Part shown: positions 1-40,915 of the stretch, piece after piece
Layout of the letters: each line of letters opens with the position of its first letter
How positions within the stretch are numbered: the first letter of the stretch is position 1
IMG/VR virus record: IMGVR_UViG_3300022752_000146
Coordinates: 1 to 41,159 of that record
DNA: 41,159 nt
Source of the DNA: a virus
Direction: 5' to 3' (one strand)
Notes under the pieces: generated by a model
Database searches by the model: none
Told to the model about the DNA's origin: nothing
What the model saw: the letters and a program-made list of their open reading frames with translations, nothing else
Made by a program: the position numbers and the translations under genes

Positions 1-1
1 T

Positions 2-553
2 TGGGGCAGTCCTCCTACAGCTACTTTTGGTGGCAGCTTCGATTGGGGCAGTCCTCCTACAGCTACTTTTGGTGGTAGCTTTGATTGGGGAAGTCCTCCT
101 CCAGCTACTTTTGGTGGCAGTTTTGATTGGGGCAGTCCTCCTACAGCTACTTTTGGTGGCAGCTTCGATTGGGGCAGTCCTCCTACAGCTACTTTTGGTG
201 GTAGCTTTGATTGGGGAAGTCCTCCTCCAGCTACTTTTGGTGGTAGCTTCGATTGGGGCAGTCCTCCTATAGCTACTTTTGGTGGCAGCTTTGATTGGGG
301 CAGTCCTCCTACAGCTACTTTTGGTGGTAGCTTCGATTGGGGCAGTCCTCCTACAGCTACTTTTGGTGGTAGCTTCGATTGGGGAAGTCCTCCTACAGCT
401 ACTTTTGGTGGTAGCTTCGATTGGGGAAGTCCTCCTACAGCTACTTTTGGTGGCAGCTTTACTTGGGGCAGTCCACCAGATGTTGGCGGCAGCTTTACTT
501 GGGGAAGCCCCCCAGAAGTTACTGTTACTTGGGGAAGTCCTCCAACTGTTACG
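2..553 (+). repeat. 42-bp tandem repeat array inside the fibre-like gene
   Basis: Eleven full 42-bp units run from base 2 to 463, followed by degenerate shorter units to about 553. Units differ mostly at synonymous sites (GGC/GGT, TTC/TTT, ACA/CCA), so the peptide repeat is kept while the DNA drifts. The array may extend left of the window. Confidence 0.9.
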
Positions 554-1189
554 GTTGAAGTAGTATGTGGTGGTGGTGGTGGAACGCCAATGTTACCAAG
601 ATCAAAAATGTTGGATGAGAATTTTATAGATGATTTTGATGAATCTATGAAATTAGAAATAGATAATACGGATATAGGCATACCATCAGAAATAAAAGTA
701 GTTGTTCCTAAATTTCCTGAAATAACAGTGAAACATGATATACCAGATTTTATTTCTATAAATTCTCAATTGCCTGATAGGATAGAGCTTTATCAAAGCC
801 AACCTCTTTTACATGCTCATGAAATAAGACTTATTAATGAAAATGTAATTCCTAAAACAATTGAAATAAAAGCAATGGATATACCCAAATCTATAAGCAT
901 AGACTCTGGTAATCTACCTAATTTTATTAGTCTTGTTGTGCCAAAATTCCCAGAGATAAAAGTAGATGCTTCTGGAATACCAGAGGTGATTCAGGTTACA
1001 GGAATACCAGATTCAATTGAAGTGAAGATGCCAAGTGAAATAACGGCAAAATTAGAAATACCAGAAAATTTAGAAATACCGCTAGTTTATAGAGGCGGCC
1101 CTGTGCCTATTCAATTTGATTCTTCAAATTTACTAGGCAATGAAGACAGACCGTGCTTTGCACTTGTTCCTTGTGATCCCAAAAAATGA
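2..1189 (+). CDS. Repeat-rich fibre-like protein, 5'-partial
   Basis: The frame is open from base 2, so the gene starts left of the window; 395 residues are visible. The first part is eleven near-identical 14-residue repeats (WGSPPTATFGGSFD, 42 bp each, Trp codons at 2, 44, 86 and so on to 422). Decaying 12- and 10-residue copies follow from 464 and 500, then a Gly run near 570. The second half carries a looser beta-type repeat with the pattern IP-x-x-I-x-V and VVPKFPEI seen twice. No signal peptide or enzyme motif is visible. Repeats of aromatic, Gly, Ser and Pro residues suit an elongated virion appendage, but that is inference. Reading frames in the +3 phase over the repeats give hydrophobic Leu/Val proteins and are artefacts. 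The stop overlaps the next ATG (ATGA). Confidence 0.75.
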   Translation, partial: WGSPPTATFGGSFDWGSPPTATFGGSFDWGSPPPATFGGSFDWGSPPTATFGGSFDWGSPPTATFGGSFDWGSPPPATFGGSFDWGSPPIATFGGSFDWGSPPTATFGGSFDWGSPPTATFGGSFDWGSPPTATFGGSFDWGSPPTATFGGSFTWGSPPDVGGSFTWGSPPEVTVTWGSPPTVTVEVVCGGGGGTPMLPRSKMLDENFIDDFDESMKLEIDNTDIGIPSEIKVVVPKFPEITVKHDIPDFISINSQLPDRIELYQSQPLLHAHEIRLINENVIPKTIEIKAMDIPKSISIDSGNLPNFISLVVPKFPEIKVDASGIPEVIQVTGIPDSIEVKMPSEITAKLEIPENLEIPLVYRGGPVPIQFDSSNLLGNEDRPCFALVPCDPKK

Positions 1190-4824: not shown

Positions 4825-5844
4825 ATGAGTGGAATTGGTTTTGACTGCGGAACATATCATCTTGTAAGCGCAAAAAGAAAAGATAAAGAAATAATATTCA
4901 AGAAAGAAGTAAATGCATTTTTAGAAATGCCATTAGATAATAGATTTGTTTTCAACATGATGAAAAACGCAGGCGTCCCACTAATTGAGCAAGAAGATGC
5001 AAATTTAGCTTATGCATTAGGAGAAGCGGCTGTAAATATGGCTTACACCATGAATCAATTAGAACTAAAAAGACCAATGAAAGACGGATGTTTGAATCCA
5101 AAAGAAAAACACGCTCAGCAAATCATGAATGTAATGTGCCATAGCCTAATAGGAGAAATTGACCATCCAGACGAAAAGCTTTATTATTCAGTTCCTGCAA
5201 ATGCAATAAACAAAGAAACTGATGCTGATTATCACTCGAAAATACTTCAAGCTATGTTCAAGGCTTATGAGAGCGAAAAAGGATATAAAGTAGACGCTCA
5301 CCCAATAAACGAAGCTTTAGCATTGGTTTACGCCGAATTGACAGAGAAAAATTGGACTGGAATTGGCATATCATTTGGAGCAGGAATGGTGAATTTGTGT
5401 TATGCAATATATGGCGCTCCTGTTTTTCAATTCTCTTTGGTCAATAGCGGAGATTGGATCGACAAAATGGCTTCAAAAGCTATTGGCGAAGAAACAACAA
5501 CATATGTAAATAAAGAAAAAATGCATGCTGATCTAACTTTGGAGAATCCAGATACTTTAGTCCAAAGAGCAATCAAATCTCAATATGAAATCATGATTCA
5601 TCATACAGTACAGGGGATTAAGAAAGGAATTGAAGAGGCTGGAAATAAAGCCAGATCAGAAAGCCCAGTAGATATTATAGTGGCTGGTGGTACTAGTATG
5701 CCGAAAGGATTTGACACCTTATTTGCTAAAATTTTAGAACAAGCAAAATTATCAACATTGAAAGTAGGAAATGTAATTAGACCTAAAGATCCTTTGTATT
5801 CAGTTGCAAAAGGATGTTTGATAGCAGCGGAAAATGCAAACTAA
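4825..5844 (+). CDS. Actin/Hsp70-superfamily ATPase (ParM/MreB-like)
   Basis: 339 residues with the full set of actin-fold nucleotide motifs. Phosphate-1 is GFDCGT near residues 5-9. A connect-1-like INEALALVYAE lies near 165. Phosphate-2 is GIGISFGAGMVN near 180. The adenosine loop is IIVAGGTSMPKG near 290, followed by a final SVAKGCLIAA helix. The length fits ParM, MreB and MamK filaments rather than full Hsp70, and there is no substrate domain. AGGAG lies 5 nt before the ATG. In other viruses such filaments position or segregate DNA or organise infected cells; that role here is inference. The following 72-residue gene may be its partner. A non-polymerising sugar-kinase-like ATPase is less likely. 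Confidence 0.8.
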   Translation: MSGIGFDCGTYHLVSAKRKDKEIIFKKEVNAFLEMPLDNRFVFNMMKNAGVPLIEQEDANLAYALGEAAVNMAYTMNQLELKRPMKDGCLNPKEKHAQQIMNVMCHSLIGEIDHPDEKLYYSVPANAINKETDADYHSKILQAMFKAYESEKGYKVDAHPINEALALVYAELTEKNWTGIGISFGAGMVNLCYAIYGAPVFQFSLVNSGDWIDKMASKAIGEETTTYVNKEKMHADLTLENPDTLVQRAIKSQYEIMIHHTVQGIKKGIEEAGNKARSESPVDIIVAGGTSMPKGFDTLFAKILEQAKLSTLKVGNVIRPKDPLYSVAKGCLIAAENAN

Positions 5845-10889: not shown

Positions 10890-11657
10890 ATGAATATAAC
10901 ACATATGAGCGTCTCAAGAAAAACAGTTTGGGACGAATGTCAAAAAAAATATTATTTTAAATATCATTTAAAATTAGAGCCAGAAGAGCCAGAGCCATTT
11001 TATTTTACCTACGGAAAAATAATTCATAAAATAGCGGAAGAATACGTACTTAGGGGCGGAAAATCAGAATTAAAAGAAGTTACCAATCAAGTTGTGAATG
11101 GAGAAATTGCATTAGAAGATGATCAAAAAACTTTTGCTCCGACCCTTCCAATGGAATATAAATTAAGAATGCCAGGTCATCTTTCTTCTCTTTATAAAAT
11201 AACAGAACAAATAGGTTTCGATGGAGAATTAGAATGGGACTTTAGGTACGATTTAGACAAGCCTAAAGAAAAATTTGTCATAGGTTTTATAGACAGATTA
11301 ATAAAAAGAAAAAATAATTTTTTCATTTTAGATTATAAAACAACAAAAAGAGGAAAGTTTAGAAAAAATAAAAACACAATAAAAGATGATTTGCAATTAA
11401 GAACTTACGCAAGAATAGTGCAAAAGCAATTTGACGTTCCTGCCGAGAATATAAATACAGCTTTATATTATTTAGAAGGTGGAGATTTGATCTCTACTAA
11501 ATTCACAGATAAATCATTAGAAGAAGCAGAAAATATTTTGCTTAATTCATATGATGATATTAAAAATTCTGATCCTGAAAAAATTTGGGGCAATGTTGGA
11601 AACCACTGTTACAGGTGTGAGTATTACAAAATTTGCCCCTTTTTTAAGAAAAAATAA
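10890..11657 (+). CDS. RecB/Cas4-like PD-(D/E)XK nuclease
   Basis: 255 residues. The RecB-type nuclease motifs are GKIIHKIAE (H46), GFIDRLI (D135), ILDYKTTKRG (D148, K150) and a QLRTYARI helix (QxxxY type). One Cys near the N-terminus (C17, DECQKKY) and three near the C-terminus (C-x2-C-x6-C) fit the iron-sulfur cluster of the Cas4/AddB branch. T4-like and other large phages often carry such an exonuclease for recombination or end processing. There is no CRISPR array nearby, so Cas4 function is unlikely. It is divergent from the primase gene and ends 1 bp before the convergent protease gene. Confidence 0.85.
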   Translation: MNITHMSVSRKTVWDECQKKYYFKYHLKLEPEEPEPFYFTYGKIIHKIAEEYVLRGGKSELKEVTNQVVNGEIALEDDQKTFAPTLPMEYKLRMPGHLSSLYKITEQIGFDGELEWDFRYDLDKPKEKFVIGFIDRLIKRKNNFFILDYKTTKRGKFRKNKNTIKDDLQLRTYARIVQKQFDVPAENINTALYYLEGGDLISTKFTDKSLEEAENILLNSYDDIKNSDPEKIWGNVGNHCYRCEYYKICPFFKKK

Positions 11658-11658
11658 A

Positions 11659-12576
11659 TTATTTATTTGTTGGAATTGGAATGTAATTAAAGTCATATTT
11701 TTTACTTGGTTCGCTCCAGTCAAAAACAGGAATGTTTCTTCCTGAGAACTCGCCAAGTAATAAAATCCATTCATGTCCATTATCTATAAAAACTTTATGT
11801 ATGGATTCTAGAGGTGTAAAATATCCAATACCACTGCCAGTAACAACATCAGAAGTTCCCCAACAAACTCCAACATGCCATCCTGAATTTGTTAACAGTC
11901 CTCCGCCAGATCTTCCTGGTCTAGGGCTATTCTTAATTGTAATTAAGTCCTCACCTCTTTTTTCTAAAAATTCCACTTCATATCTTGCTACTTCTCTGCC
12001 TCCGTCACATCCTAAAGAATTCAATTTATCTCCTTTATTTATCTTGTGATCTAAAGAAGCTATTGGAAAACAGTTTGGATTCCAATCTGGCTTGAATCTC
12101 AAACAGCTACAATCTCTGCCTCTTGTATTGCTATAAAATAAAACTTCTGCTTCGTATGACTTTGGCTCATCAATTCTTGAAGATCCAGGATACCAAGTAA
12201 TTATTTTTGCTTTTTCTTTATTTTTTAAAAGTTCTTTGTAAGATTTATTTCCATCCCAAAGATGACCACAAGAAATTACATAAGCCCAACCTTCTTCGGG
12301 TTCGTAGTAACAAATAGTTCCAGATCCACTTCCTCCATTGACGCTAATCTTAACTGAGGATAATAGAAATACCTTAAACTTCTCGTCTCTTTCTTCTTTT
12401 GGAGCCTGACTATTGGATACATTTATTGGTTTGCTGTTTCTTAGAACAGGCATCGCCACAACATCATTCTGTGGTGACCATTTTTCAATTATTTCATCAT
12501 TTTTATAATTGAAATTTAATAAAGAACATGCTAATATAATTGTAGAAAATAAGAACAAAATTGAAATCCTTTTCAT
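11659..12576 (-). CDS. Exported trypsin-like serine protease (putative lipoprotein) with C-terminal IPxP tail
   Basis: 305 residues. The N-terminal hydrophobic stretch ends in a lipobox (ILAC, Cys17), so it is probably lipid-anchored outside the cytoplasm. The chymotrypsin-fold triad is visible: SCGHLWDG (H105), GRDCSCLRF (D155) and PGRSGGGLL (S223, with the oxyanion Gly). The last residues are YDFNYIPIPTNK, a tail shared with the proteins at 13717 and 28879. GCAGGAGG lies 8 nt before the ATG. Exported trypsin-like proteases are rare in phages. Possible roles are cleaving host envelope proteins or blocking a competing virus. Confidence is high for the fold and low for the role. Confidence 0.85.
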   Translation of the reverse strand: MKRISILFLFSTIILACSLLNFNYKNDEIIEKWSPQNDVVAMPVLRNSKPINVSNSQAPKEERDEKFKVFLLSSVKISVNGGSGSGTICYYEPEEGWAYVISCGHLWDGNKSYKELLKNKEKAKIITWYPGSSRIDEPKSYEAEVLFYSNTRGRDCSCLRFKPDWNPNCFPIASLDHKINKGDKLNSLGCDGGREVARYEVEFLEKRGEDLITIKNSPRPGRSGGGLLTNSGWHVGVCWGTSDVVTGSGIGYFTPLESIHKVFIDNGHEWILLLGEFSGRNIPVFDWSEPSKKYDFNYIPIPTNK

Positions 12577-12610
12577 AGTTTAAGCCTCCTGCTTTTTTCT
12601 ACATATATAT

Positions 12611-13123
12611 ATGAATAATTTAGCTCTATTTATCACACATAATATTTTTTTTGACCAAACACAGATAAACTTGTTTTTGGAAAAAGATTACATCAAAATA
12701 GAAGGCGTAAGTGTTCCTGTTTGGGTTAACGCAAAGACTTCTAAAACAACAGAGCCCGCCCAAGAAATTTTTTGTGAATATGAGATTTTTAATAGACAAG
12801 AAAAAAATGATATATTATTAAATAAAAAAGGTTACAAGATATTATTATGCAATCAATTTTGGAATCCTCCAGAAGAGATTGACTTTAAAAAGTTAGCAAA
12901 TATGCATGAACAAGAAAGAATTGAATTTGAAGAAAAAAGAAACAAGTGGTGGAAAAAAAATCCAAAACCACTCTCCATAAGAGACTTTAAAGAAACAGAA
13001 TATTTTAGAATTGAAATTAAAAAGCTAAATGAAAAATTTGACAAGCTTCCTGGTCAAGAGGTAGATTGTCAGCACATAATAGAAATAAAGACCAAAAGTA
13101 AATTATATAATAGTTTGACTTAA
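12611..13123 (+). CDS. Hypothetical protein, 170 aa
   Basis: A hydrophilic protein starting MNNLALFITHNIFFDQTQ, with a middle segment WWKKNPKPLSIRDFKETEYF. No signal peptide or catalytic motif is seen. It has an alternating AT stretch just before the ATG and no ribosome site. Its stop overlaps the stop of the convergent gene by 4 nt. Family not recognised. Confidence 0.6.
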   Translation: MNNLALFITHNIFFDQTQINLFLEKDYIKIEGVSVPVWVNAKTSKTTEPAQEIFCEYEIFNRQEKNDILLNKKGYKILLCNQFWNPPEEIDFKKLANMHEQERIEFEEKRNKWWKKNPKPLSIRDFKETEYFRIEIKKLNEKFDKLPGQEVDCQHIIEIKTKSKLYNSLT

Positions 13124-13635
13124 TTTGAAGTTTGTAATGCCAAACCAATTCTCATTGTAACTAATTCGCCTTCAGATATAACTAAATTAGAGCCCAAAGG
13201 AACTGAGGATATTAATTTTCTAGTTCCTTGTGTTGCTCCACTAAGTGCTGTTGCTAAAAATATATTTCTAGCAGACCAATTGTTCGCGGTCGATCTGAAT
13301 ATAACTATTGGGCTGTTTGCTTGAAACCTACCGTTTATTCCGCTTGTCATAGTTACAGTGAAGTTTGTATTAGGAACTTCTTGTCTAGAGTATCCTTGAC
13401 CGCTAGACTCTACGCTTGGGATATCAAAAAAGCCATCATTGACATCTAAAACACTTCTTGTGTCTAGTCCTATATAATATTTTTGAACTAAAGAGATTCC
13501 GCCAAATAAAGCTTTAAGTATATATTCTTCTCCTTCTTTATGCAAAATATTTTTTAAATTTGAATTTTTATATAATATTTTGCCATTTTTATCTATATGG
13601 TTAATTTCTAAAACAGTCATTAAGTGGAAACTCAT
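13120..13635 (-). CDS. Probable virion structural protein, 171 aa
   Basis: GGAGG lies 7 nt before the ATG. The N-terminus has the pattern ILYKNSNLKNILHKEGEEYILKALF, then KYYIGLDTRS. The rest is beta-rich and Ser/Thr/Gly-rich, ending in LVISEGELVTMRIGLAL. Proteins with a NxLHxEGE...L-x-x-LF...YYxGLD layout occur among minor tail or base structural proteins of large phages. That comparison is from memory and not certain. No enzyme motif is seen. Confidence 0.55.
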   Translation of the reverse strand: MSFHLMTVLEINHIDKNGKILYKNSNLKNILHKEGEEYILKALFGGISLVQKYYIGLDTRSVLDVNDGFFDIPSVESSGQGYSRQEVPNTNFTVTMTSGINGRFQANSPIVIFRSTANNWSARNIFLATALSGATQGTRKLISSVPLGSNLVISEGELVTMRIGLALQTSN

Positions 13636-13668
13636 AATTTATCCTCCATAATTATTTAGTTAGATTAT

Positions 13669-13676
13669 TATAAATA
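13669..13676 (+). promoter_or_regulatory. TATAAATA box, T4-late-like
   Basis: An exact match to the T4 late promoter octamer, placed 40 bp before the ATG of the cysteine protease gene. That gene has a separate strong ribosome site. The genome is AT-rich, so a chance match is possible. Confidence 0.35.
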
Positions 13677-13716
13677 CATATGTGAATTTGATTTAATTGG
13701 TACTTCAAGGAGGTTT

Positions 13717-14463
13717 ATGAAAAAATTATTATTTTTAATATTTAGCTTTTCTTTAGCTATAGTATTTATATTAATATTAAATGAAGAAAGTGGAAATCAA
13801 GGTCTTGAAAAGTACCAAAAAGCACCAAAAAAAGCTTCAAAAATAGAGGGTGACTATAGAACCACATTTGTACCTTTTTATTCTTCTGGTCCGGGAGAAT
13901 TTGATTTAGAAAAAATACAATGCCCAATACCCTTAGAGGATAGAGTTAAAAATCATACAGGAATTCAATGCGTTTATTCTTCTATAGAAACGCTTGGAAG
14001 ATGGGCAGAAGAGCCCAAACTAACAAACCCTCCAATAACCAGCAGAGCAGAATGCAAAGGTTACTCTAGCCCAAGAAGAGCAGAAGAAATTCTTAATAAG
14101 CTCAATGTAAAATTTGAACAAACATACGGAAGCAAAGAAAAGGGAATATCGCTAATCAAAAAAGCAATGAAAGAAGGAAGAGGAGTTTTGTGGGATGTCC
14201 CAGGACATGCCATGGTTTTAGTTCATTATTCAGAAACAGAAAATAAAGTTTGTTGGGTTGATAATAGTGATAGGGCCTTAAGGGTACAGCAAACAACAAT
14301 TTCAAAATTTAATCAAAGATGGCAATCTTGGGTTTTAGTAATTTACGCAGATAAAGAAGTGGTAAAATACAAAATTTATAAAAATATAAATTTTCCCATA
14401 TTGGATCACAAATCTAAGAAAAATTTTCCTTTTGATTTTATTCCACTGCCAGAACTAAATTAG
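13717..14463 (+). CDS. Membrane-anchored or exported papain/C39-like cysteine peptidase with C-terminal IPxP tail
   Basis: 248 residues. The N-terminal hydrophobic segment (residues 3-21) is a signal peptide or membrane anchor, with no lipobox. The active-site pattern fits a papain-fold or C39-like peptidase: TGIQCVYSSIE (C85), PGHAMVLVHY (H164), then CWVDNSD (D182 or N183). The mature part has further Cys residues. The C-terminus is FPFDFIPLPELN, matching the tail of the proteases at 11659 and 28879. AAGGAGG lies 4 nt before the ATG. C39-type enzymes normally cut leader peptides; alternatively it could be a transglutaminase-like or amidase enzyme of the same fold. It acts outside the cytoplasm if exported. 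Confidence 0.75.
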   Translation: MKKLLFLIFSFSLAIVFILILNEESGNQGLEKYQKAPKKASKIEGDYRTTFVPFYSSGPGEFDLEKIQCPIPLEDRVKNHTGIQCVYSSIETLGRWAEEPKLTNPPITSRAECKGYSSPRRAEEILNKLNVKFEQTYGSKEKGISLIKKAMKEGRGVLWDVPGHAMVLVHYSETENKVCWVDNSDRALRVQQTTISKFNQRWQSWVLVIYADKEVVKYKIYKNINFPILDHKSKKNFPFDFIPLPELN

Positions 14464-14466
14464 TTT

Positions 14467-15153
14467 ATGGACTTATCTATTATAATTCAAACTTGCGACA
14501 AATATGAAAAATTTTGGCCTGGTTTTTTTTATTACATGAATAAATTTTGGGATAATAAAATAAAATCTAAAATTTACTTTTGCACAGAAGAAAAAAATAT
14601 AAATAATTGCAAATACCAACAAATTAATACCGGTCGTGGGACTTTCATTGAAAATCTTAATTTTATATTGAATAAAATAGAAACTAAATATGTGTTTTAT
14701 ATGTTAGAAGATTTTTGGCCATTGTGCGGAATAGACTATGACTTATTTTCTACAATATATAAGCTTATAGAAGAAAATGAAATAAATGCTTTTCAATTAA
14801 GTTCTTATACTCCTTATTACGACTTAGAAAAAACAAACATTAAGATAAGAAATCAAAATGTTTTTAAATTTAATAAAAATAGCGAATGGAGATTTAATTT
14901 TCAATCTAGATTTTGGAATAAAGAAGTATTAAAAAAATCTTTACTCGAACCAGAAATTTCAGAATCTATTGTAAGATCCGCTATAACAGCCGAAATTGCA
15001 TGTGATAAAAAATTCGACAAGGAAATAGAAGTTTATTTTTATCACCATTTCTGGTATCCGCTTAGCGGAGTGAGTTATCGGGGCAATTTTACTAATTTGG
15101 GAGAAGAGCTACATAATAATATGATGGTAGATTTATTTTCTAAAAGCATTTAG
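14467..15153 (+). CDS. Glycosyltransferase-like protein (GT-A type, tentative)
   Basis: 228 residues. The N-terminus, MDLSIIIQTCDKYEKFWPGF, reads like the first strand of GT-A enzymes. A later KYVFYMLEDFWPL (E81, D82) could be the metal-binding acidic motif. A C-terminal YFYHHFWYPLSGVSYRG holds paired His residues. It starts 3 bp after the protease gene stop, so it belongs to the same operon. The match is by general pattern only; a different nucleotide-sugar enzyme is possible. Confidence 0.55.
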   Translation: MDLSIIIQTCDKYEKFWPGFFYYMNKFWDNKIKSKIYFCTEEKNINNCKYQQINTGRGTFIENLNFILNKIETKYVFYMLEDFWPLCGIDYDLFSTIYKLIEENEINAFQLSSYTPYYDLEKTNIKIRNQNVFKFNKNSEWRFNFQSRFWNKEVLKKSLLEPEISESIVRSAITAEIACDKKFDKEIEVYFYHHFWYPLSGVSYRGNFTNLGEELHNNMMVDLFSKSI

Positions 15154-15157
15154 ACCA

Positions 15158-15577
15158 TTACCAATCTTCATCTTCATCTTCTAGACCCCATTCGTCTTCG
15201 TCTTCGTCTTCGTCTTCGTCTTCGTCTTCGTCTTCGTCTTCGTCTTCGTCTTCGTCTTCGTCTTCGTCTTCTTCATCGTCTTCATCTTCGTCATAGTCTT
15301 CATAGTCATCTTCATCTTCATCTTCATCTTCATCTTCATAGTCATCTTCATCTTCATCTATATCGTCATCGCCATCGTCATCGTCATCGTCATCAAAATA
15401 ATCATTATCATCATCGTCATCGGATGATGATTCTTCCCAATTCCAATTATTGTATTCTTCATTAATTATATTTAAATTGTCTTCTTGTCCGGAATACCAT
15501 TCGTTTTCATCATTGTATACATCGACTTCGTAAATGTCAGATTCACAAAAATCATTATCAGATTTTCCTAAATTCAT
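15158..15577 (-). CDS. Highly acidic Glu-Asp repeat protein
   Basis: 139 residues. GGAG lies 5 nt before ATG 15577 (MNLGKSD), which I prefer over an upstream in-frame ATG at 15619. The first 50 residues are mixed and aromatic (NEWYSGQEDNLN, NNWNWEESS). The rest is almost only Asp and Glu, with DEDE runs. Possible roles are DNA mimicry, cation binding or charge balance inside the head; none is shown by sequence. The Glu-Asp run is coded by a hexamer repeat that can change length by slippage. Confidence 0.6.
   Translation of the reverse strand: MNLGKSDNDFCESDIYEVDVYNDENEWYSGQEDNLNIINEEYNNWNWEESSSDDDDDNDYFDDDDDDDGDDDIDEDEDDYEDEDEDEDEDDYEDYDEDEDDEEDEDEDEDEDEDEDEDEDEDEDEDEDEWGLEDEDEDW
15191..15270 (-). 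repeat. TCTTCG hexamer microsatellite
   Basis: About 13 perfect copies of TCTTCG on the plus strand encode alternating Glu and Asp on the minus strand. The array is pure, so it is probably recent or prone to slippage. Confidence 0.9.
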
Positions 15578-15696
15578 TTTTACTCCAGTTCTAAATAATT
15601 GATGAAAACTATATATCATATAAAAAGCAAATTTTTACTTATTAATATGATTTTGAAATCTTATCATATTTTAACATTATAAGTCAATAGATAAAT

Positions 15697-17103
15697 CTAA
15701 ACTATATAATTTCTAATTAATTTATTGTTTTCTATTGACCACATGTTATTTTTATCTTGTTTTTCTATTATAGAAAGACAAAATAAAGAAGAATCTAATA
15801 GTTGTTGTTCGTTAGGAACAACCTCATCTATTAATGTTCCATTGTTATCAAATTCAAAGTAAATATCAGAAGGAACTTCTACTTCCACTTCTTTATTTGG
15901 GCCTGATAGGGCTGAAATACTCTGTATTTTCATCGTTTTATTTTTACTTAATTTGACAATTGTTCCTTTGCTATTTTTTACAACTTGATCATCTTTACTT
16001 AAGTTTAAAACAACTTCATCCCAAGAAGTATTTGATAAAATTTTTAAAGAATCTTTATTCAAAATATTGAATTCAATAAAAGATTCTTTTACTAAACTTT
16101 CGTATTCTGGATATTTTATTTTTGACAATGCAACCATGCATTTGGCTATCGCAGAATAATAATCTACTGCTCTCGGGCTGGTGGGGATTGCTTGTAGCAG
16201 TAGTGAAAAACAAATATCCCTAGCTTTTTTAATTGCTATAATTGGAGAATTTAACAAGCACTCTTTATTATAAACTTTAACAAAAACATTATACCAAGCG
16301 GCAGAAAAAACTCTACCAAAACTATGGCATTCCGCTGCGAGTTGTTCATTCGCAGCTTCTTCAGGTAAACTTCTTGGGTCAACGTACTTGAAAACTTCTA
16401 TAGAAGGATCTCTTAATGCATTTGGCAAATATTTATCTTGATAATTATTATAAATAAAAATTCCGACTTCTTCCGCCAATCTTGAAACTAAATTAGATTT
16501 AGATATGTCTCCATTTGTTTCTTCTAAAACTTTTTTCAAAGCTTCTTCATATTGCATTATGCTAACAATAGAACATATGTCTGCAAACGCCTCGTGAAAA
16601 GACCATATTTCTAAAGATTGAACGCTCCAGAAATCTGGTCGTGCTGCATCTAATATTGCATGTCCTAATTCATGAGATATTATATCTTGTGAATCCGCTG
16701 TATATATTGTTTTGTTATTGACTTTAGCGTAAAAAAATCTCAACGCTCTTCTGTCGTAGTAGGCATTAACATCGATTCCGGCCAAAGGAACTACGTCTAA
16801 ATTCTGCGTTGCTGCCCACTTTTTTATAATTGTTTTGCTATTTTTTTGAACATAATTTATAAAATTGCCTATTGTAATAAAGCAATTTAGGGCTCTTTTT
16901 TGATTTTGATTTTTTGGCTGCGGGTTGTAGTCTCTAACTGAATATTTTAATATTCCAACGGAAGGAATTTCTACTTTTTCAACTAAATTATAAGTAGAAT
17001 CATTAATTGTGTAATCTATAATTTTTTTAGTATTTAAATTAGAAGATTTGGGAGAAGATGCTTTAGATTTAGGAAATAACAGATTATATAAATTATAAAA
17101 CAC
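15697..17103 (-). CDS. Zinc metallopeptidase, gluzincin (thermolysin-like) type
   Basis: 468 residues from GTG 17103. AAGGAGG lies 6 nt before this GTG, while an in-frame ATG at 17127 is upstream of that site, so the GTG is the likely start. The active site is SHELGHAIL (H144, E145, H148), with the third ligand in SFHEAFADI (E171, Asp four residues later), the arrangement of M4/M36 peptidases. A helical domain follows, with AECHSFGRVFSAAWY. The last 150 residues are beta-rich and unassigned. The N-terminus (MFYNLYNLLFPKSKAS) is not a typical signal peptide. It lies between the exported cysteine protease and the MscL-like gene and lacks the IPxP tail. Confidence 0.8.
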   Translation of the reverse strand: MFYNLYNLLFPKSKASSPKSSNLNTKKIIDYTINDSTYNLVEKVEIPSVGILKYSVRDYNPQPKNQNQKRALNCFITIGNFINYVQKNSKTIIKKWAATQNLDVVPLAGIDVNAYYDRRALRFFYAKVNNKTIYTADSQDIISHELGHAILDAARPDFWSVQSLEIWSFHEAFADICSIVSIMQYEEALKKVLEETNGDISKSNLVSRLAEEVGIFIYNNYQDKYLPNALRDPSIEVFKYVDPRSLPEEAANEQLAAECHSFGRVFSAAWYNVFVKVYNKECLLNSPIIAIKKARDICFSLLLQAIPTSPRAVDYYSAIAKCMVALSKIKYPEYESLVKESFIEFNILNKDSLKILSNTSWDEVVLNLSKDDQVVKNSKGTIVKLSKNKTMKIQSISALSGPNKEVEVEVPSDIYFEFDNNGTLIDEVVPNEQQLLDSSLFCLSIIEKQDKNNMWSIENNKLIRNYIV

Positions 17104-17141
17104 AGCGAACCTCCTTGTAATATACATATCTATATATTTTT

Positions 17142-17585
17142 ATGAAATATAAATTTGAAAATCACAAATCATTTATTGGTGAAAATGAATTAAAAAAATA
17201 TAAAGAATTTGCATTTAAAGAAGACATGATGAAAATGTCTATAGCTTTTATTCTTGGTTCTTCATTCAACAAAATTATTGCAGGAGTGTCTGATCTCGTG
17301 TTGATGCCGATTATAAATTTCACGGCTAAAAAGACAGGGGATTGGAGATTGTGGAATTTTAGTTTAATTGAAGGTCTGACTTTTGAAGTAGGAAAATTTT
17401 TAGGAGTCTTAGTGGATTTTTTTCTTATTTCTATATTACTTTATATAGTTTACTCTAAAATATTACAAAACATAAATACATCAGGGCATGCTTCCGTTCA
17501 ATTAAAAGAATGCCCTTTATGTAAAAGTGAAATAAATTATTTTGCAATAAAATGCCCAGAATGCACAGGAGATTTAGATGGCTAG
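17142..17585 (+). CDS. mscL: MscL-like large mechanosensitive channel with zinc-ribbon tail
   Basis: 147 residues. The MscL core is clear: YKEFAFKEDMMKMSIAFILG as the N-terminal helix and start of TM1, SSFNKIIAGVSDLVLMPIIN after it, and TM2 as FLGVLVDFFLISILLYIVY. The C-terminus is CPLCKSEINYFAIKCPEC, the zinc-ribbon tail found on many bacterial MscL proteins. MscL opens under membrane tension and releases small solutes. In a virus it could relieve osmotic stress or disrupt the membrane late in infection; this is inference. TATATT lies 3 nt before the ATG and there is no ribosome site. Its end overlaps the next gene by 8 nt. Confidence 0.85.
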   Translation: MKYKFENHKSFIGENELKKYKEFAFKEDMMKMSIAFILGSSFNKIIAGVSDLVLMPIINFTAKKTGDWRLWNFSLIEGLTFEVGKFLGVLVDFFLISILLYIVYSKILQNINTSGHASVQLKECPLCKSEINYFAIKCPECTGDLDG

Positions 17586-18237: not shown

Positions 18238-18618
18238 TCAATTAGCAAATATTAGATATGCCAAGCCTAGAACCTGAGCAGCAATAACTACAACCAATCC
18301 AATTGTTAATAAAGATGGTTTTTTGCTCATAAGTTTTTCTTCAACTAAAACTTGCATAGGAGACTTTACTTGATCAACTGACTCAACGACTGCGTTGTCT
18401 GAAACTTTCTCCACCACTCTACTTACAATTTCTCCAGTGACTTCGTCTATAGTTTCAATTTCTCTTTCGCAGACACAATATTTTTCAGTAATTCTTTGAG
18501 CCAACTTTTTCTCCGGCTTTGGTTCAACATATATTTCTGTTACTCTAGTCTTTCCTTGATCTATTTCAATTTTTTCTGCTTTTCTACCATCTTCAAATAA
18601 AAATTCAGAGTCAGACAT
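18238..18618 (-). CDS. Tail-anchored membrane protein, 126 aa
   Basis: AAGGAG lies 5 nt before the ATG. The first 100 residues are charged and soluble, with a Cys pair (CVCERE) and a Val/Glu-rich stretch. The last 25 residues form one membrane segment (LLTIGLVVVIAAQVLGLAYL), leaving the N-terminal part in the cytoplasm. There is no signal peptide. No family recognised. A spanin or holin role would need export or several membrane segments, which are absent. Confidence 0.65.
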   Translation of the reverse strand: MSDSEFLFEDGRKAEKIEIDQGKTRVTEIYVEPKPEKKLAQRITEKYCVCEREIETIDEVTGEIVSRVVEKVSDNAVVESVDQVKSPMQVLVEEKLMSKKPSLLTIGLVVVIAAQVLGLAYLIFAN

Positions 18619-25852: not shown

Positions 25853-26320
25853 TCAACTTTTCTTAATCATCATTCTAATATTGTCCGCATCAGATCTACT
25901 ATCTAATATTTGATCTTCTAAGAACAATTCGATGTATTTTCCATCAATCTTATCTTCACCTTCATTTTCTTGAAGCTTGGAGGCATCTTCTATTCTGGCG
26001 ACGTATTTGCTGACGACCTCTTCTTCCATTCTTAAAGCTTCTTCTAAGATTTCTTCAGGGCAGCTCAAATTATTTTTAAAATCAGCAACTTTAGTAGTAA
26101 CAGATTTATTAATCTGTCTTCTAGATAAAAGGCCATTTAAAAGCCTTTTAAATTCCTCTATGTGCTTCATTTCTCCTGCTGCTTCTTCAAGAAAAAACTC
26201 TCCTAGTTCTTCTCTATGCAGACCTGTTACAGACGTAGCGGCCTGCATGTAGAAATGCCAGTGGCTATATTCTCTAGAAAGATCTTCATTTAACAAATCA
26301 ATCAATTTATCTAAGTTCAT
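25853..26320 (-). CDS. Ferritin-like diiron-fold protein
   Basis: 155 residues from ATG 26320 (MNLDKLIDLLNEDLSREYSH); TTTGGAGT lies 8-9 nt upstream. Four-helix ferritin/bacterioferritin pattern: the first helix has NEDLSREYSHWHFYMQAA, the second has EEAAGEMKHIEEF with the E-x-x-H iron motif, and a later helix carries RMEEEVVSKY. The last helix has LEDQILDSRSDAD, where the usual E-x-x-H appears altered to Asp. Iron storage or oxidation, or Dps-like DNA protection, are possible. It overlaps the upstream gene by 14 nt and is probably coupled to it. Confidence 0.7.
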   Translation of the reverse strand: MNLDKLIDLLNEDLSREYSHWHFYMQAATSVTGLHREELGEFFLEEAAGEMKHIEEFKRLLNGLLSRRQINKSVTTKVADFKNNLSCPEEILEEALRMEEEVVSKYVARIEDASKLQENEGEDKIDGKYIELFLEDQILDSRSDADNIRMMIKKS

Positions 26321-26597
26321 CTTGTTTAACTCCAAATAGTGGTTCGTCGTTATCAAATCCAACAATAGAAAGTTTATCAGAAATAAAATTATTTAACAAT
26401 ATTTGTCCAATCTTAATACATCCTGCCCAGCTTACAACTCTCATTATTTCATCAAGCTCTGTGATATTTTGTTTTACACATGCTAAAATAATAGAATCTA
26501 TATCTTCTTTTGATAAAGATGTGTACTTTTTTTCTTCTTCGCACCAATGAAGATCATCCGCAGGTATGAGTTTATTTAATATTTTTTCATATTCCAT
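26307..26597 (-). CDS. Hypothetical protein, 96 aa
   Basis: A small mostly helical protein (MEYEKILNKLIPADDLHWCE, then ITELDEIMRVVSWAGCIKIG). It lies directly upstream of the ferritin-like gene with a 14-nt overlap, so the two are co-translated. No motif recognised. Confidence 0.6.
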   Translation of the reverse strand: MEYEKILNKLIPADDLHWCEEEKKYTSLSKEDIDSIILACVKQNITELDEIMRVVSWAGCIKIGQILLNNFISDKLSIVGFDNDEPLFGVKQDELR

Positions 26598-28847: not shown

Positions 28848-28878
28848 ACTATATTATTTAAATGTTTTGGTTCTAATT

Positions 28879-29823
28879 ATGCGTTATTTATTTTTATTTT
28901 TATTTTTATCTTTAATCTCAAACAAAGCTTTTGGTCAAGATAAAACTGGTTTTGCAATAGATCCTAATGCAAATAATATTGCTGCTCTTTTTACAATGAC
29001 AGATGAATCTGGGCGGACAAAAAATTTAGATCTTATGGAAAGTGTTTTTGAGGATGGGTCGTTAGGTTTTGAGGCAGAAAGATATCATAATGTTCCTTCA
29101 AATTTTATTTATAATAAATTAACAGAATTAGCTCTAAAGCTAGAGTCGGATTCAACATTATTATTGTATTTTAACAGTCATGGAGGAGGTAGCGGGAACA
29201 GATTTATAATGACTGCTTCAGGTGGTAGCTTTAAGTTTAGCAAAGCATTAGAAGCATTAAAAAAATCAAATAAAAAAATTAAAAGATTAATTTTTCTAGT
29301 TGACACATGCCACGCAGAAGGCTCCATACAAGATAGTTTGGGACAAGATGGAGAATTATTAAGAGATATAAAATTATCCACCCCAACAAACTATCTCCCA
29401 GAATTGCCATCTAAATTTACAAGAAAAACAATGCCTTTCGTTTCAATTTTCAACATAAAGACAGATGGTCAAATAGACTTTGGAGAAGATGAAAATGTCT
29501 ATGAGGAAATTCTTATTATTAGTTCTTCAAGCGTAGAAGACTTATCTATGAGAGGAACTTTTGCATCTCGTTTGGCAAGTACATTTGAAAAAGTAAAAAG
29601 CAATAAAGAAATAACTCTAGGAGAATTTCTAAAGAAATTTGCAGAAAGTCATCCTAAAAGCGGACAGCAACCTCATTATAAAATATTGCCACAAAATTCA
29701 ATGATTAATGAATTATTGTTTGGACCATCGCAGGCTCAAACAATAAAAATAATTGATAGATCAAAAAATATATCTAAATTTCCAGTTGATTATATTCCAA
29801 TGCCGAGAATTAAATCTCAATAG
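28879..29823 (+). CDS. Exported caspase-like (C14) cysteine peptidase with C-terminal IPxP tail
   Basis: 314 residues from ATG 28879; a TTG at 28867 would add four residues before the signal peptide. Residues 1-19 are a signal peptide (MRYLFLFLFLSLISNKAFG) with a likely A-F-G cleavage site. The caspase-fold dyad is LLLYFNSHGGGSG (H101) and RLIFLVDTCHAEG (C144), with the hydrophobic strands expected before each. SVEDLSMRGTFASRL later fits the last strand region. The C-terminus is KFPVDYIPMPRIKSQ, the tail shared with the proteases at 11659 and 13717. Bacterial caspase homologues act in proteolysis and cell death; an exported viral one is unusual. No clear ribosome site. Confidence 0.8.
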   Translation: MRYLFLFLFLSLISNKAFGQDKTGFAIDPNANNIAALFTMTDESGRTKNLDLMESVFEDGSLGFEAERYHNVPSNFIYNKLTELALKLESDSTLLLYFNSHGGGSGNRFIMTASGGSFKFSKALEALKKSNKKIKRLIFLVDTCHAEGSIQDSLGQDGELLRDIKLSTPTNYLPELPSKFTRKTMPFVSIFNIKTDGQIDFGEDENVYEEILIISSSSVEDLSMRGTFASRLASTFEKVKSNKEITLGEFLKKFAESHPKSGQQPHYKILPQNSMINELLFGPSQAQTIKIIDRSKNISKFPVDYIPMPRIKSQ

Positions 29824-31801: not shown

Positions 31802-34300
31802 ATGGCTTGGTGGGATTTTTATAAACTTTGGACGTACCAATTTGAAAAAGGACCAATAGAAAAAAGAGGAATTGAAAATTCCCAAGCTATTGGGGCTGGA
31901 GTAACTGTACCTGATGCCATGCCTGACCTTAGAGGCGAAATGTGGAATGGAGGAGCAAAAGGTCAAATAAGGCTATACGATAGCAATGATTTTATAGACT
32001 TGTCCACAGTTACTAACAGACAGTCAAGATATAAAGAATATGAAAGACTAAGAAATGTTGCTGAAATAGAAATGGCAATGACGGTAATTTCAGATGAAGC
32101 CTGTATTGCGGGAGAAACTCGCGTATCAACTTTGTTTGAAGGATTTAGAACAATAGAATCTTTGGCCGCAAGATGGAAAAAAGACCCAACTCCATTTTTG
32201 GTTTATTGTTGGGATTTTGAAAAACAAGATTACACCTTAGGCTGGGCTTTTGAGCCTAGATTGGTAAAAAAATCTAAAACAATCAAAGTAGTTTTAGACG
32301 ATGGCAGCTATTTCATAGTAACACCAGATCATAGAATTTTGGATAAAAATCAAGAGTGGATCCATGCCGAAAACATAAAAAGAGGCTGTGAGCTTATGCC
32401 TTTTTATAAATTAGATCCCAACAAGTCTCTAAATCAAATAAAAACAAATCAATTCCCAAGAATTTACACAAATCAAGGATGGAAACACGAAAGGCAATTT
32501 ATAGACGAATGGAAAAATGGAACTAATGAAAGATATGCAAAAATAAGCAAGGCTTTGAGGCTTCTCGCTGATGGAGCAACCATAAGACAAACAAGTCAAA
32601 TAATGGGTCATCATTGGCAGACAATTGAAAGCTGGATAAAGAAGGAAGGATTTACAACAAAAGAATTAAAGTGGCTAGGCAAAAAAGAAAAACAAAGAAA
32701 AGTAATTGGGATATATCCTTATGAAGAAATGAATGTTTATGATCTTTCTGTTGCAGAACATGAAAATTTTTGCACAGACTCAACGATCATGCATAATTGT
32801 CAAAAAGACGAAAATGGAAATGTTGTCAAAATAAGTTGTAGCGATGAAGATGTTGTAAAAGAACTAGAATTCTTATGTTTTAATAGAAAAATGCTAAATT
32901 TAAATAAGAAAATTTGGCAAATAACAAAGAGATTGTGCATATTTGGCGATGGATTTTATGAATTGATCACAAATGCAAATAATCCAAAAGATGGGATTCT
33001 GAAGATTCAAGAATTGCCACCTGATTCTATGTATAAAATCGTAACTACCAAAGGAAAATTGGTCGAATTCCAACAGTCTAAAGAAGGTCCAGATTATCAA
33101 GCTCTGACTCGTAGCAGTATGGCGACTGCAACAGATTTAGAGTTGCAGCAATCTACCGCAATTAGATTTGCTCCTCAACAAGTTATTCATTTTTGTTTGG
33201 GAGAAGATAGGAAAACTTTCTACCCATATGGACAATCTTTAATAGAACCAGCACGTGGACCAGCTCATCAATTAAGACTTATGGAAGATGCAATGTTAGT
33301 ATACAGACTTACTCGCGCACCTGAGCGTAGAGTGTTTTATATAGACGTTGGCCAACTTCCACCATTCAAAGCAGAAGCATTCGTTGACAGAATGAAAGAT
33401 CAATTTAGAAAGAAAAAAGTAGGAACAAGTAGCGGGGCCGGTGCAAACGCCATAGAAGAAAGATGGCATGCTCCAGCTGCGGATGAGGATTATTGGTTAC
33501 CAATAAGACCAAATGCAAACACTAGAATAGAAACATTGCCAGGAGCACAAAATCTTGGGGAAATAGACGACGCTTTATATTTTAGAAATAAATTATTTAC
33601 TGCACTAAATTTTCCTAAAAATTATTTTAATGTAGAAGATCCAGGCTCCACAAGAATTACATTATCTGCACAGGACGCCAGATTTGCAAGAATGGTAGAA
33701 AGAATACAATCTAGCGTCGAAGATGGAATCCTGGAGATTTGCGAGAGACATTTGGAAATGCGAGGCTTTCCATTTGAATCTTTTGAAGATCTTAAAATTA
33801 GCATGACTCCCCCTTCTGCTTGGAAGGAACTTAGCGAAGCAGAAATAATAAACAATAGAATAAACTTAGTTACAACACTTAAGACGGCTTTGCTAATGTC
33901 TGATTATGACTTATTAACTAAATATTTAAAATATTCTGATGAGGAGGCTGAGAGAATAATTTCTAGAAATAAGATTCAAAAATTGGAAGAACTTAAGATT
34001 CAAATAATTGGACAAAACCCACAATTACTAGGAGTCGGAACCCCCGGTAACCCATCAGAACTAGAAATTGGAGCAGAGGCTGGTGGTCCTAGTCCGATGT
34101 TGGGAGTTGGGGGGCCAGAAGCAGAAAATCAAGAAAACGAAGCTCCAGAGGAACAAGAAGCACAAGAAAATCCCGAAAAAGAAGATCTAATTGGATTTGA
34201 AGAACCTTCTGAAGAAGATATTAAGAAATATGATCTAGATATAGAAGATTACAATAAATCTATCGATGATGAAGAAATAGATTGGAGCGAAGAAGATTAA
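31802..34300 (+). CDS. Portal protein (T4 gp20-like) carrying an intein
   Basis: 832 residues as coded, about 600 after splicing. The portal forms the dodecameric ring at the head vertex for DNA passage and tail joining. Diagnostic segments are YRLTRAPERRVFYIDVGQLPP and YFRNKLFTALNFPKNYF, both close to gp20. An intein interrupts it after Ala100 (see separate entry). The C-terminus is an acidic, Glu/Gln-rich tail. A weak GAGG site lies 7 nt before the ATG. Splicing must be efficient, because the portal is essential. The gene ends with a 4-nt overlap with the convergent gene at 34297. Confidence 0.95.
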   Translation: MAWWDFYKLWTYQFEKGPIEKRGIENSQAIGAGVTVPDAMPDLRGEMWNGGAKGQIRLYDSNDFIDLSTVTNRQSRYKEYERLRNVAEIEMAMTVISDEACIAGETRVSTLFEGFRTIESLAARWKKDPTPFLVYCWDFEKQDYTLGWAFEPRLVKKSKTIKVVLDDGSYFIVTPDHRILDKNQEWIHAENIKRGCELMPFYKLDPNKSLNQIKTNQFPRIYTNQGWKHERQFIDEWKNGTNERYAKISKALRLLADGATIRQTSQIMGHHWQTIESWIKKEGFTTKELKWLGKKEKQRKVIGIYPYEEMNVYDLSVAEHENFCTDSTIMHNCQKDENGNVVKISCSDEDVVKELEFLCFNRKMLNLNKKIWQITKRLCIFGDGFYELITNANNPKDGILKIQELPPDSMYKIVTTKGKLVEFQQSKEGPDYQALTRSSMATATDLELQQSTAIRFAPQQVIHFCLGEDRKTFYPYGQSLIEPARGPAHQLRLMEDAMLVYRLTRAPERRVFYIDVGQLPPFKAEAFVDRMKDQFRKKKVGTSSGAGANAIEERWHAPAADEDYWLPIRPNANTRIETLPGAQNLGEIDDALYFRNKLFTALNFPKNYFNVEDPGSTRITLSAQDARFARMVERIQSSVEDGILEICERHLEMRGFPFESFEDLKISMTPPSAWKELSEAEIINNRINLVTTLKTALLMSDYDLLTKYLKYSDEEAERIISRNKIQKLEELKIQIIGQNPQLLGVGTPGNPSELEIGAEAGGPSPMLGVGGPEAENQENEAPEEQEAQENPEKEDLIGFEEPSEEDIKKYDLDIEDYNKSIDDEEIDWSEED
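32102..32797 (+). other. Mini-intein in the portal protein, 232 aa
   Basis: It starts at Cys101 (CIAGETRV, splicing block A). Block B is YFIVTPDHRIL with the T-x-x-H site, block F is NVYDLSVAEHENFCTDS, and block G ends MHN before the Cys of the C-extein. All residues for standard Cys1-Asn splicing are present. No LAGLIDADG or HNH endonuclease is visible. The linker contains a helix-turn-helix-like segment (KALRLLADGATIRQTSQIMG), perhaps left over from a homing domain. Confidence 0.9.
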
Positions 34301-39772: not shown

Positions 39773-40915
39773 ATGAACATAGAAGAATTTAATCAAAAAT
39801 ATTCAAGTTTCAAAGACATAGAGAAAATTGAAATAAATTGTGATCATCCTAATCATGAGCCTAAAAACGAAGCAATTTTAATTGGAAAGCAGCCAGCAAA
39901 AAGAAACATATTAAAAAATAATGGAAAAGAATTCATATGTAGAAAATGTTTTTTGTATTATAAAAATCCAATGAATAATAAAATGCAAGAAAATAGACAA
40001 ACAGACGAAATCATTGATGTGATATGCCCATGTGCCGAACACAAAGGCGATCCGGCAAGACAAATGAAAAAGAAAAACTATTATGGCTCGTTAGAAAAGC
40101 CTTATTTGCAACTTTGTAGCAGTTGTGTTCAATTAAATAAAACAATTAGCGAAGAACAAAAAGAAAAAATTAGACTTGCTTTAACTGGAATTAAGAGAAA
40201 TGAAGAATTTAAAAATAAATTAAGTGTTTATATGAAAAATAATATCGAAGGTATAGCCAGAGCATCTGCAAATTTAATACCTGGTTCTGGTGGCGGTTGG
40301 AACAAAGGATCGACCACCCCCGAAGACGTGAAACAAAAAATGTCCATAGCTCATACTGGCAAGGAATTTACAGAAGATCATTGTAATAATATTTCAATAG
40401 GCAGGAAAAAAATGTTAGATGAGACAGGAGGCTTTTCTAAAGAGCATAGAGAAAAAATATCAAAAGCAACAATAAAACAATATCAAAATGGATTCGAACC
40501 CAAATTGCATCACGTTACAGGGTGGCATATTTCTCCAAAGGCTGGTCGTGTTTATTTTCGATCTTCTTATGAGAAAAAAGCATTTATTAAATTAGATGAA
40601 GATGAAAATGTAAAAACATATAAAACAGAATCTATAGTCGCAGAATACTATAATCCAGAAAAACAAATTAATTCTTCATATCTAATAGATCTATTTATAG
40701 AGTATCAAGATGGATCTAAAAAGCTAGTGGAAGTAAAACCGGAAAAGTGGCTACAAGATAATGTTATTAGTCTTAAAATCGAAGCAGGAGCCTCCAAGGC
40801 AAAAGAAATGGGAATTCCATTTGAAGTTTGGACAGAAATGAATTTGTTTGGTCATGTTTATAATAAAAAAAATATGCAAATATTTATAGAAAAAATTAAA
40901 AAAGATAAAATTTAA
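39773..40915 (+). CDS. Putative free-standing homing endonuclease (zinc fingers, NUMOD3, PD-(D/E)XK)
   Basis: 380 residues. The N-terminus has two Cys/His clusters (CDHPNH with CRKC; CPCAEH with CSSC), probably zinc fingers. Residues about 125-235 carry three NUMOD3-type DNA-binding repeats (ISEEQKEKIRLALTG, PEDVKQKMSIAHTGKEF, SKEHREKISKAT). The C-terminal domain has RVYFRSSYEKKAF, then SYLIDLFIEY and KKLVEVKPEKW, matching the E, D and ExK residues of a PD-(D/E)XK nuclease. AGGAG lies 6 nt before the ATG. It follows the capsid gene, a common site for such mobile genes, and has its own promoter. Confidence 0.8.
   Translation: MNIEEFNQKYSSFKDIEKIEINCDHPNHEPKNEAILIGKQPAKRNILKNNGKEFICRKCFLYYKNPMNNKMQENRQTDEIIDVICPCAEHKGDPARQMKKKNYYGSLEKPYLQLCSSCVQLNKTISEEQKEKIRLALTGIKRNEEFKNKLSVYMKNNIEGIARASANLIPGSGGGWNKGSTTPEDVKQKMSIAHTGKEFTEDHCNNISIGRKKMLDETGGFSKEHREKISKATIKQYQNGFEPKLHHVTGWHISPKAGRVYFRSSYEKKAFIKLDEDENVKTYKTESIVAEYYNPEKQINSSYLIDLFIEYQDGSKKLVEVKPEKWLQDNVISLKIEAGASKAKEMGIPFEVWTEMNLFGHVYNKKNMQIFIEKIKKDKI

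Follow-up and report, generated by a model that had tools for sequence, protein, structure and literature searches.

The window analyzed here, 41,159 nucleotides at its full length, is a 41-kb fragment of the uncultured virus record IMGVR_UViG_3300022752_000146, in which 46 genes were examined. It carries T4-type head genes (terminase, portal with an intein, prohead protease, and major capsid protein), together with (i) a trypsin/HtrA-fold serine protease (SER); (ii) a C39-like cysteine protease; (iii) an M4-like zinc metallopeptidase; and (iv) a caspase-like (C14) protease (Table 1). An earlier note on this DNA had described an envelope-directed cluster of such peptidases beside an MscL-type channel. 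All of the protease genes and the MscL gene that it named are present, and the catalytic residues that it listed are as it gave them, except for the number of the M4 glutamate. SER, C39, and the caspase, whose genes are spread over 15 kb, end in a common C-terminal module of about 23 residues, RxIPIxDRNxPQGxYPxDYIPLP, which is referred to below as the tag or tail.

According to their conserved active sites, SER, C39, M4, and the caspase are all predicted to be genuine proteases, and the catalytic residues, whose loss in relatives would have counted against the earlier note, are retained. The SER triad H105/D155/S223 was verified in the window protein and is invariant in an alignment of 43 relatives, SER relatives being 33-53% identical to the window protease. 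SER matches Pfam Trypsin_2 at 29.5 bits (cut-off 27.6), and its N-terminal signal contains a lipobox-like IILAC. Folds were assigned for SER and the C39-like protein from AlphaFold2 models followed by Foldseek: the SER model (pLDDT 90) matches DegS, DegP, and elastase (E about 1e-9 for DegS and elastase), while the model of the C39-like protein (pLDDT 80), which has no Pfam match, is best matched in the PDB by the HlyB C39-like domain and the ComA peptidase. C85/H164/N183 were verified in the latter and are invariant in 17 aligned relatives. The caspase matches Pfam Peptidase_C14 at 40.5 bits (cut-off 21.4), and its H105/C148 dyad is invariant in an alignment of 4. The C-termini of the three proteins read RNIPVFDWSEPSKKYDFNYIPIP-TNK (SER), INFPILDHKSKKNFPFDFIPLP-ELN (C39), and QTIKIIDRSKNISKFPVDYIPMP-RIKSQ (caspase).

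Table 1. Features of the window, tagged proteases first; signals and export are predictions.
Feature	Coordinates	Strand	Description
SER	11659..12576	-	305 aa; exported trypsin/HtrA-fold serine protease; signal, triad, C-terminal tag
Tag on SER	11668..11736	-	RNIPVFDWSEPSKKYDFNYIPIP; tail profile match; pLDDT 61-77, unpacked in the model
C39-like	13717..14463	+	248 aa; papain-fold exported cysteine protease; C85/H164/N183; C-terminal tag
Tag on C39	14386..14451	+	NFPILDHKSKKNFPFDFIPLP plus one preceding residue; tail profile match 14386-14457; pLDDT 55-59
Caspase-like (C14)	28867..29823	+	exported; H105/C148; cleavable-looking signal peptide (..AFGQ/DK); C-terminal tag
Tag on caspase	29737..29814	+	QTIKIIDRSKNISKFPVDYIPMP; tail profile match E = 1.7e-13 (profile A1, this sequence included)
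M4-like zinc metallopeptidase	15697..17127	-	476 aa; HELGH 152-156 + E179; no signal peptide, no tag
MscL-type channel	17142..17585	+	E = 2.8e-16; extra C-terminal CxxC..CxxC zinc-ribbon-like motif; about 16/78 loci
Cas4-like PD-(D/E)XK nuclease	10890..11657	+	syntenic with SER, 64 loci
orf170	12611..13123	+	present in 60 loci, its distance to SER always 0.6-0.8 kb
Acidic repeat ORF	15158-15619	-	
Tail-anchored protein	18238-18618	-	126 aa
Actin-like gene	4825-5844	+	
Ferritin-like gene	25853-26365	-	
Portal with intein	31802-34300	+	
Homing-endonuclease-like gene	39773-40915	+	
Tandem repeat	1-560		

In direct protein searches, a collection of 50,697 phage records contained no relative of SER, the C39-like protein, or the caspase, nor did scans with the single SER and caspase sequences give a match. 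IMG/VR scans led to 9 loci with a C39 gene and 70 with SER, and 78 loci were compared; these records come from metagenomes, many are fragmentary, and there is some redundancy, such that near-identical records of one phage may be counted repeatedly. A first profile, built from nine tails, picked up three SER proteins that were not among its sources (E 3e-9 to 8e-6), and a refined profile of 45 tails matched 83 of 7,428 ORFs at E <= 0.05, at which threshold reversed ORFs gave 0 matches. With the last 40 residues of the reference proteins disregarded, similarity assigns the 83 ORFs to SER (59), C39 (15), the legumain/caspase-like family (5), and the caspase (4), and to no other family. The general pattern of the tail is RxIPIxD-x9-12-[YF]I[P/L]xP, with an almost invariant Asp, and it is followed by 0-50 residues. 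When 40 records (6.37 Mb) were scanned, 51 tail matches were obtained, with E-values down to 1e-14; those that were fetched all belong to the four protease families, and the remainder coincide in position and length with classified loci. Every homology-found SER ORF has the tail (56/56, seven of them diverged and read by eye), and SER is the sole carrier found in many records. The tail has also diverged in other families, as in the caspases of the records behind L230-L232, which the profile does not recognize, and a distant C39-like protein of L240 is untagged.

The fourth tagged family, a second legumain/caspase-like family present only in relatives, was reached by two DNA-pattern scans that were blind to proteases, and its GHG...SC motif is kept in 5 members. 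A comparison that joined the two caspase-like families at 96% probability was discarded, as the signal came from the tail; tail-free profiles gave a probability of 0.7% (E 0.09), which does not show homology. A cellular origin of the tail was rejected, since the profile recognized no C-terminal tail in any of the 18 contigs, bacterial or archaeal, with a match to the DNA pattern. In this material, the module is confined to huge-phage records, where it is borne by four unrelated exported protease families. One alternative is that these are ordinary lysis or nutrient-scavenging proteases gained singly, whose shared tail reflects chance or composition. Chance was already refuted by the E-values reaching 1e-14 and the empty reversed control, and SER is syntenic across the fetched loci; although huge phages carry many accessory enzymes, and an exported M28 peptidase also occurs, we give this alternative hardly any credence.

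N-terminal signals and anchors were called by a simple hydrophobicity rule rather than by SignalP, and only 3 of the 46 window genes have one: SER, C39, and the caspase. Wherever the N-terminus of a tag carrier is available, it is a hydrophobic segment of the signal or anchor kind, and several carriers have clear cleavage sites or lipobox-like motifs. The reverse does not hold. The phage LR756511.1 has a distant exported trypsin that is untagged, and so are two exported families of the related loci: an M28 peptidase at about 17 of them (e.g., L004:15987-17165, minus strand) and a small lipoprotein at 16. The tail is thus not a general mark of exported phage proteins, given its absence from the M28 peptidase and the lipoprotein. 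Another possible role is superinfection exclusion, whereby periplasm-tethered proteases would cut the ejection or tail proteins of incoming phages and the tag would hold them near entry sites. We know of no exclusion protein that takes the form of a protease set, and we regard this explanation as improbable. In its favor, the exported or lipoprotein-like location resembles that of phage exclusion lipoproteins such as Ltp (PMC3952083).

If the tails had evolved independently, cross-family tails would be no more alike within genomes than between them. With tail boundaries set by hand, 24 same-genome pairs of cross-family tails have a mean alignment score of 51.5, against 40.4 +/- 2.1 in shuffled genomes; 0 of 5,000 shuffles scored as high as the observed mean (p = 2e-4). 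The excess of 11.1 compares with 1.8 +/- 1.7 expected from composition alone, and the signal persists without the last five residues. The third-last residue of the tail has a P-to-L variant, and here the families agree in most of the genomes for which a pair could be read, the exceptions being G021 and G007. Because the L forms cluster on the SER tree (about 6 changes; the L083 row was mis-parsed and should read P), this variant was not counted as independent evidence. Identical residues of same-genome cross-family tails use the same codon in 49 of 124 cases (a raw count, without a codon-usage expectation), which makes recent gene conversion or copying between tails appear unlikely. In the models of SER and C39, the tails have a pLDDT of 55-77 beside catalytic cores mostly at 90 or more, and no packing in cis is therefore predicted. 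Among solved structures, nothing resembled the tail with an E-value better than 0.5. Taken together, the co-variation, the codons, and the low-confidence tail fit a peptide read by a partner, or by a processing enzyme, that is particular to each phage. A cap that stabilizes the proteins against periplasmic tail-specific proteases would need no partner; the proline-rich ends and the uniformly exported carriers suit such a cap, but about 23 conserved residues, a near-invariant Asp, and co-variation within genomes would be needless for it, and the same loci retain exported M28 and lipoprotein families that have no tag. We consider a cap very unlikely.

Of the two readers, we lean slightly towards the partner, with the tag as a docking or sorting module that gathers exported proteases on a common partner at the envelope. 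In the proposed mechanism, a huge T4-like phage lineage would make a protease set whose members leave the cytoplasm by virtue of an N-terminal signal or anchor. Four unrelated families (trypsin/HtrA-fold, C39-like, caspase C14, and legumain/caspase-like) would have been recruited to this set, and each fused to the same C-terminal module through a low-confidence, probably flexible linker. We infer that the module acts in trans, docking the proteases on one partner, encoded by either phage or host, on the periplasmic side of the envelope; if proteolytically active there, they would work at one site and remodel envelope proteins during infection. A broader proposal, which we hold to be possible but rather doubtful, is that the portable tag constitutes the huge phages' own envelope-sorting code, with a co-evolving partner that would read the tag and turn unrelated exported proteases into one multi-protease machine at the host envelope.

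Several points weigh against docking. No partner was found, and 16 large records contained neither PDZ_2 nor sortase domains, although the partner could instead be a host protein or have a new fold. Some members have diverged or degenerate tails (for instance, the C39 of G007), and G021 mixes YIP and YIL forms. Furthermore, the co-variation test treats genomes as independent and ignores their relatedness, and a low pLDDT is not proof of a free tail. Two particular kinds of partner were set aside. Recognition of a free C-terminus by a PDZ-type domain is unlikely, given the 0-50 residues after the tail and the lack of PDZ_2 in the 16 records. As for a phage-encoded sortase, no sortase (PF04203) was found in these records; exosortase was not searched for.

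The chief rival to docking is a shared processing or zymogen role, in which the tail would be a maturation or inhibition element, either a zymogen latch or a cascade substrate cut by one protease of the set (e.g., SER or the caspase). Every carrier found is a protease, and a single processing enzyme with drifting specificity would also give co-variation within genomes; the conserved Asp and Asn of the tail could, moreover, suit cleavage of the caspase or legumain type. However, self-processing would be needed in the many records where SER is the sole carrier. The far C-terminal position would be unusual for a latch, the model packs the tail nowhere with confidence, and the exported M28 peptidase lacks it. 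We judge this role to be unlikely overall, although not negligibly so.

The surroundings of SER are conserved as well. Across the 78 loci, a recurring order with the same relative strands was observed: primase, Cas4-like nuclease, SER, orf170, orf171, M4-like, and orf209. SER-bearing loci also have the primase (61), the Cas4-like nuclease (64), orf170 (60), orf171 (63), and M4 (40). Since gene order and strands recur, SER and M4 are old parts of a phage locus and not a passing host island. The comparison of gene content that the earlier note had called for thus speaks against a host-island origin, which the note had named as a finding that would count against it; this origin was rejected on the grounds of synteny and gene-order conservation. 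Where C39 and SER are near each other, in 9 loci, 2.0-2.3 kb separate them; elsewhere C39 is farther off.

The idea of an envelope-directed protease set survives in part: the predicted signals or anchors of SER, C39, and the caspase agree with it, whereas the M4-like protein has neither export signal nor tail and is a conserved neighbor outside the tagged set. Of the roles that the note suggested, neither the disarming of defense proteins nor lysis in particular is favored by the results. The HExxH motif and glutamate of the M4-like protein are kept in all of the 43 rows, out of 44 aligned, that cover the region. HELGH is as previously described; with residues numbered from the ATG at 17127 the glutamate is E179, and the E171 of the earlier note fits a start 8 codons later. 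The window protein falls below the Pfam cut-off (18.9 vs. 22.4), and its relative in L005 lies above it (26.2). The MscL-type channel beside the proteases was confirmed, but with its presence at so few of the loci it is not a supported member of the exported set.

Other features of the window were noted. The acidic ORF consists of an extremely acidic Asp/Glu repeat and has no relatives in the loci, and the tail-anchored protein, with one C-terminal transmembrane helix, occurs in 26 loci. About 6 kb from SER, a gene kept in 37/78 loci matches Volactin (PF25216, 231 bits), an actin from Haloferax volcanii (PMC10869688), and its predicted product is a phage-encoded actin-like protein in a huge-phage lineage. 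A ferritin-like protein (50.6 bits) is kept in 38 loci. An intein (Pfam Intein_splicing, 36.4 bits) lies within the T4-like portal, and directly after the major capsid gene lies a homing-endonuclease-like gene with NUMOD3 and a TnsA-like nuclease domain. A long tandem repeat with a 14-residue unit, WGSPPTATFGGSFD, runs open off the left edge of the window.

The folds of these proteases are known, but the combination of one tag with four families matches no system found in the libraries or in the open-access literature searched, which yielded no report of C-terminal sorting tags in phages or of sets of exported proteases. The finding supplies functional hypotheses for protein families that lack a clear match in PHROGs or NCBIfam. 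To our knowledge, dedicated protein-addressing tags occur only in cellular sorting systems. If the docking reading is true, phages would address exported proteases with a dedicated tag, beyond merely carrying them. The tag offers a handle for finding its partner and more proteases in unannotated huge phages, and opens the question of how large phages act on the host envelope, a poorly understood process.

By terminase (48% identical) and M4-like protein (35%), the nearest annotated relative is the 595-kb uncultured phage LR756511.1. As in the window, its terminase and M4-like genes lie close together; in contrast, no significant tail match is found anywhere in the record, and its lone SER-like protein is the distant, exported, untagged trypsin of 258 aa. 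SER resembles HtrA/DegS in joining an N-terminal anchor or signal to a trypsin-fold periplasmic protease, and its best bacterial structural matches are DegS, DegP, DegQ, and HtrA. However, HtrA proper has a C-terminal PDZ domain where SER has the 23-residue tail; no PDZ domain was matched in SER, in which only a short low-confidence tail lies downstream of the protease. The C39 domains of ABC exporters are fused to an ABC transporter and cut double-Gly leaders, whereas the protein described here stands alone at 248 aa, without a transporter domain.

As regards sorting systems, LPXTG and PEP-CTERM differ from the phage tag in motif and in the hydrophobic segment and basic end that follow it, and the tail of about 23 residues is not a folded type 9 secretion C-terminal domain (CTD), for which no Pfam or NCBIfam match was obtained on the window SER, C39, and caspase. 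Unlike these three systems, the phage tag was not found in the cellular genomes scanned. Encapsulin cargo-loading peptides have an unrelated motif, while the phage carriers are exported and no matching shell or scaffold was identified. Nevertheless, the tag has in common with LPXTG/sortase, PEP-CTERM/exosortase, and the type 9 CTD a short C-terminal module on unrelated exported proteins with a signal peptide, and with encapsulin cargo loading, in logic only (PMC8346489), one short peptide that leads unrelated enzymes to one partner.

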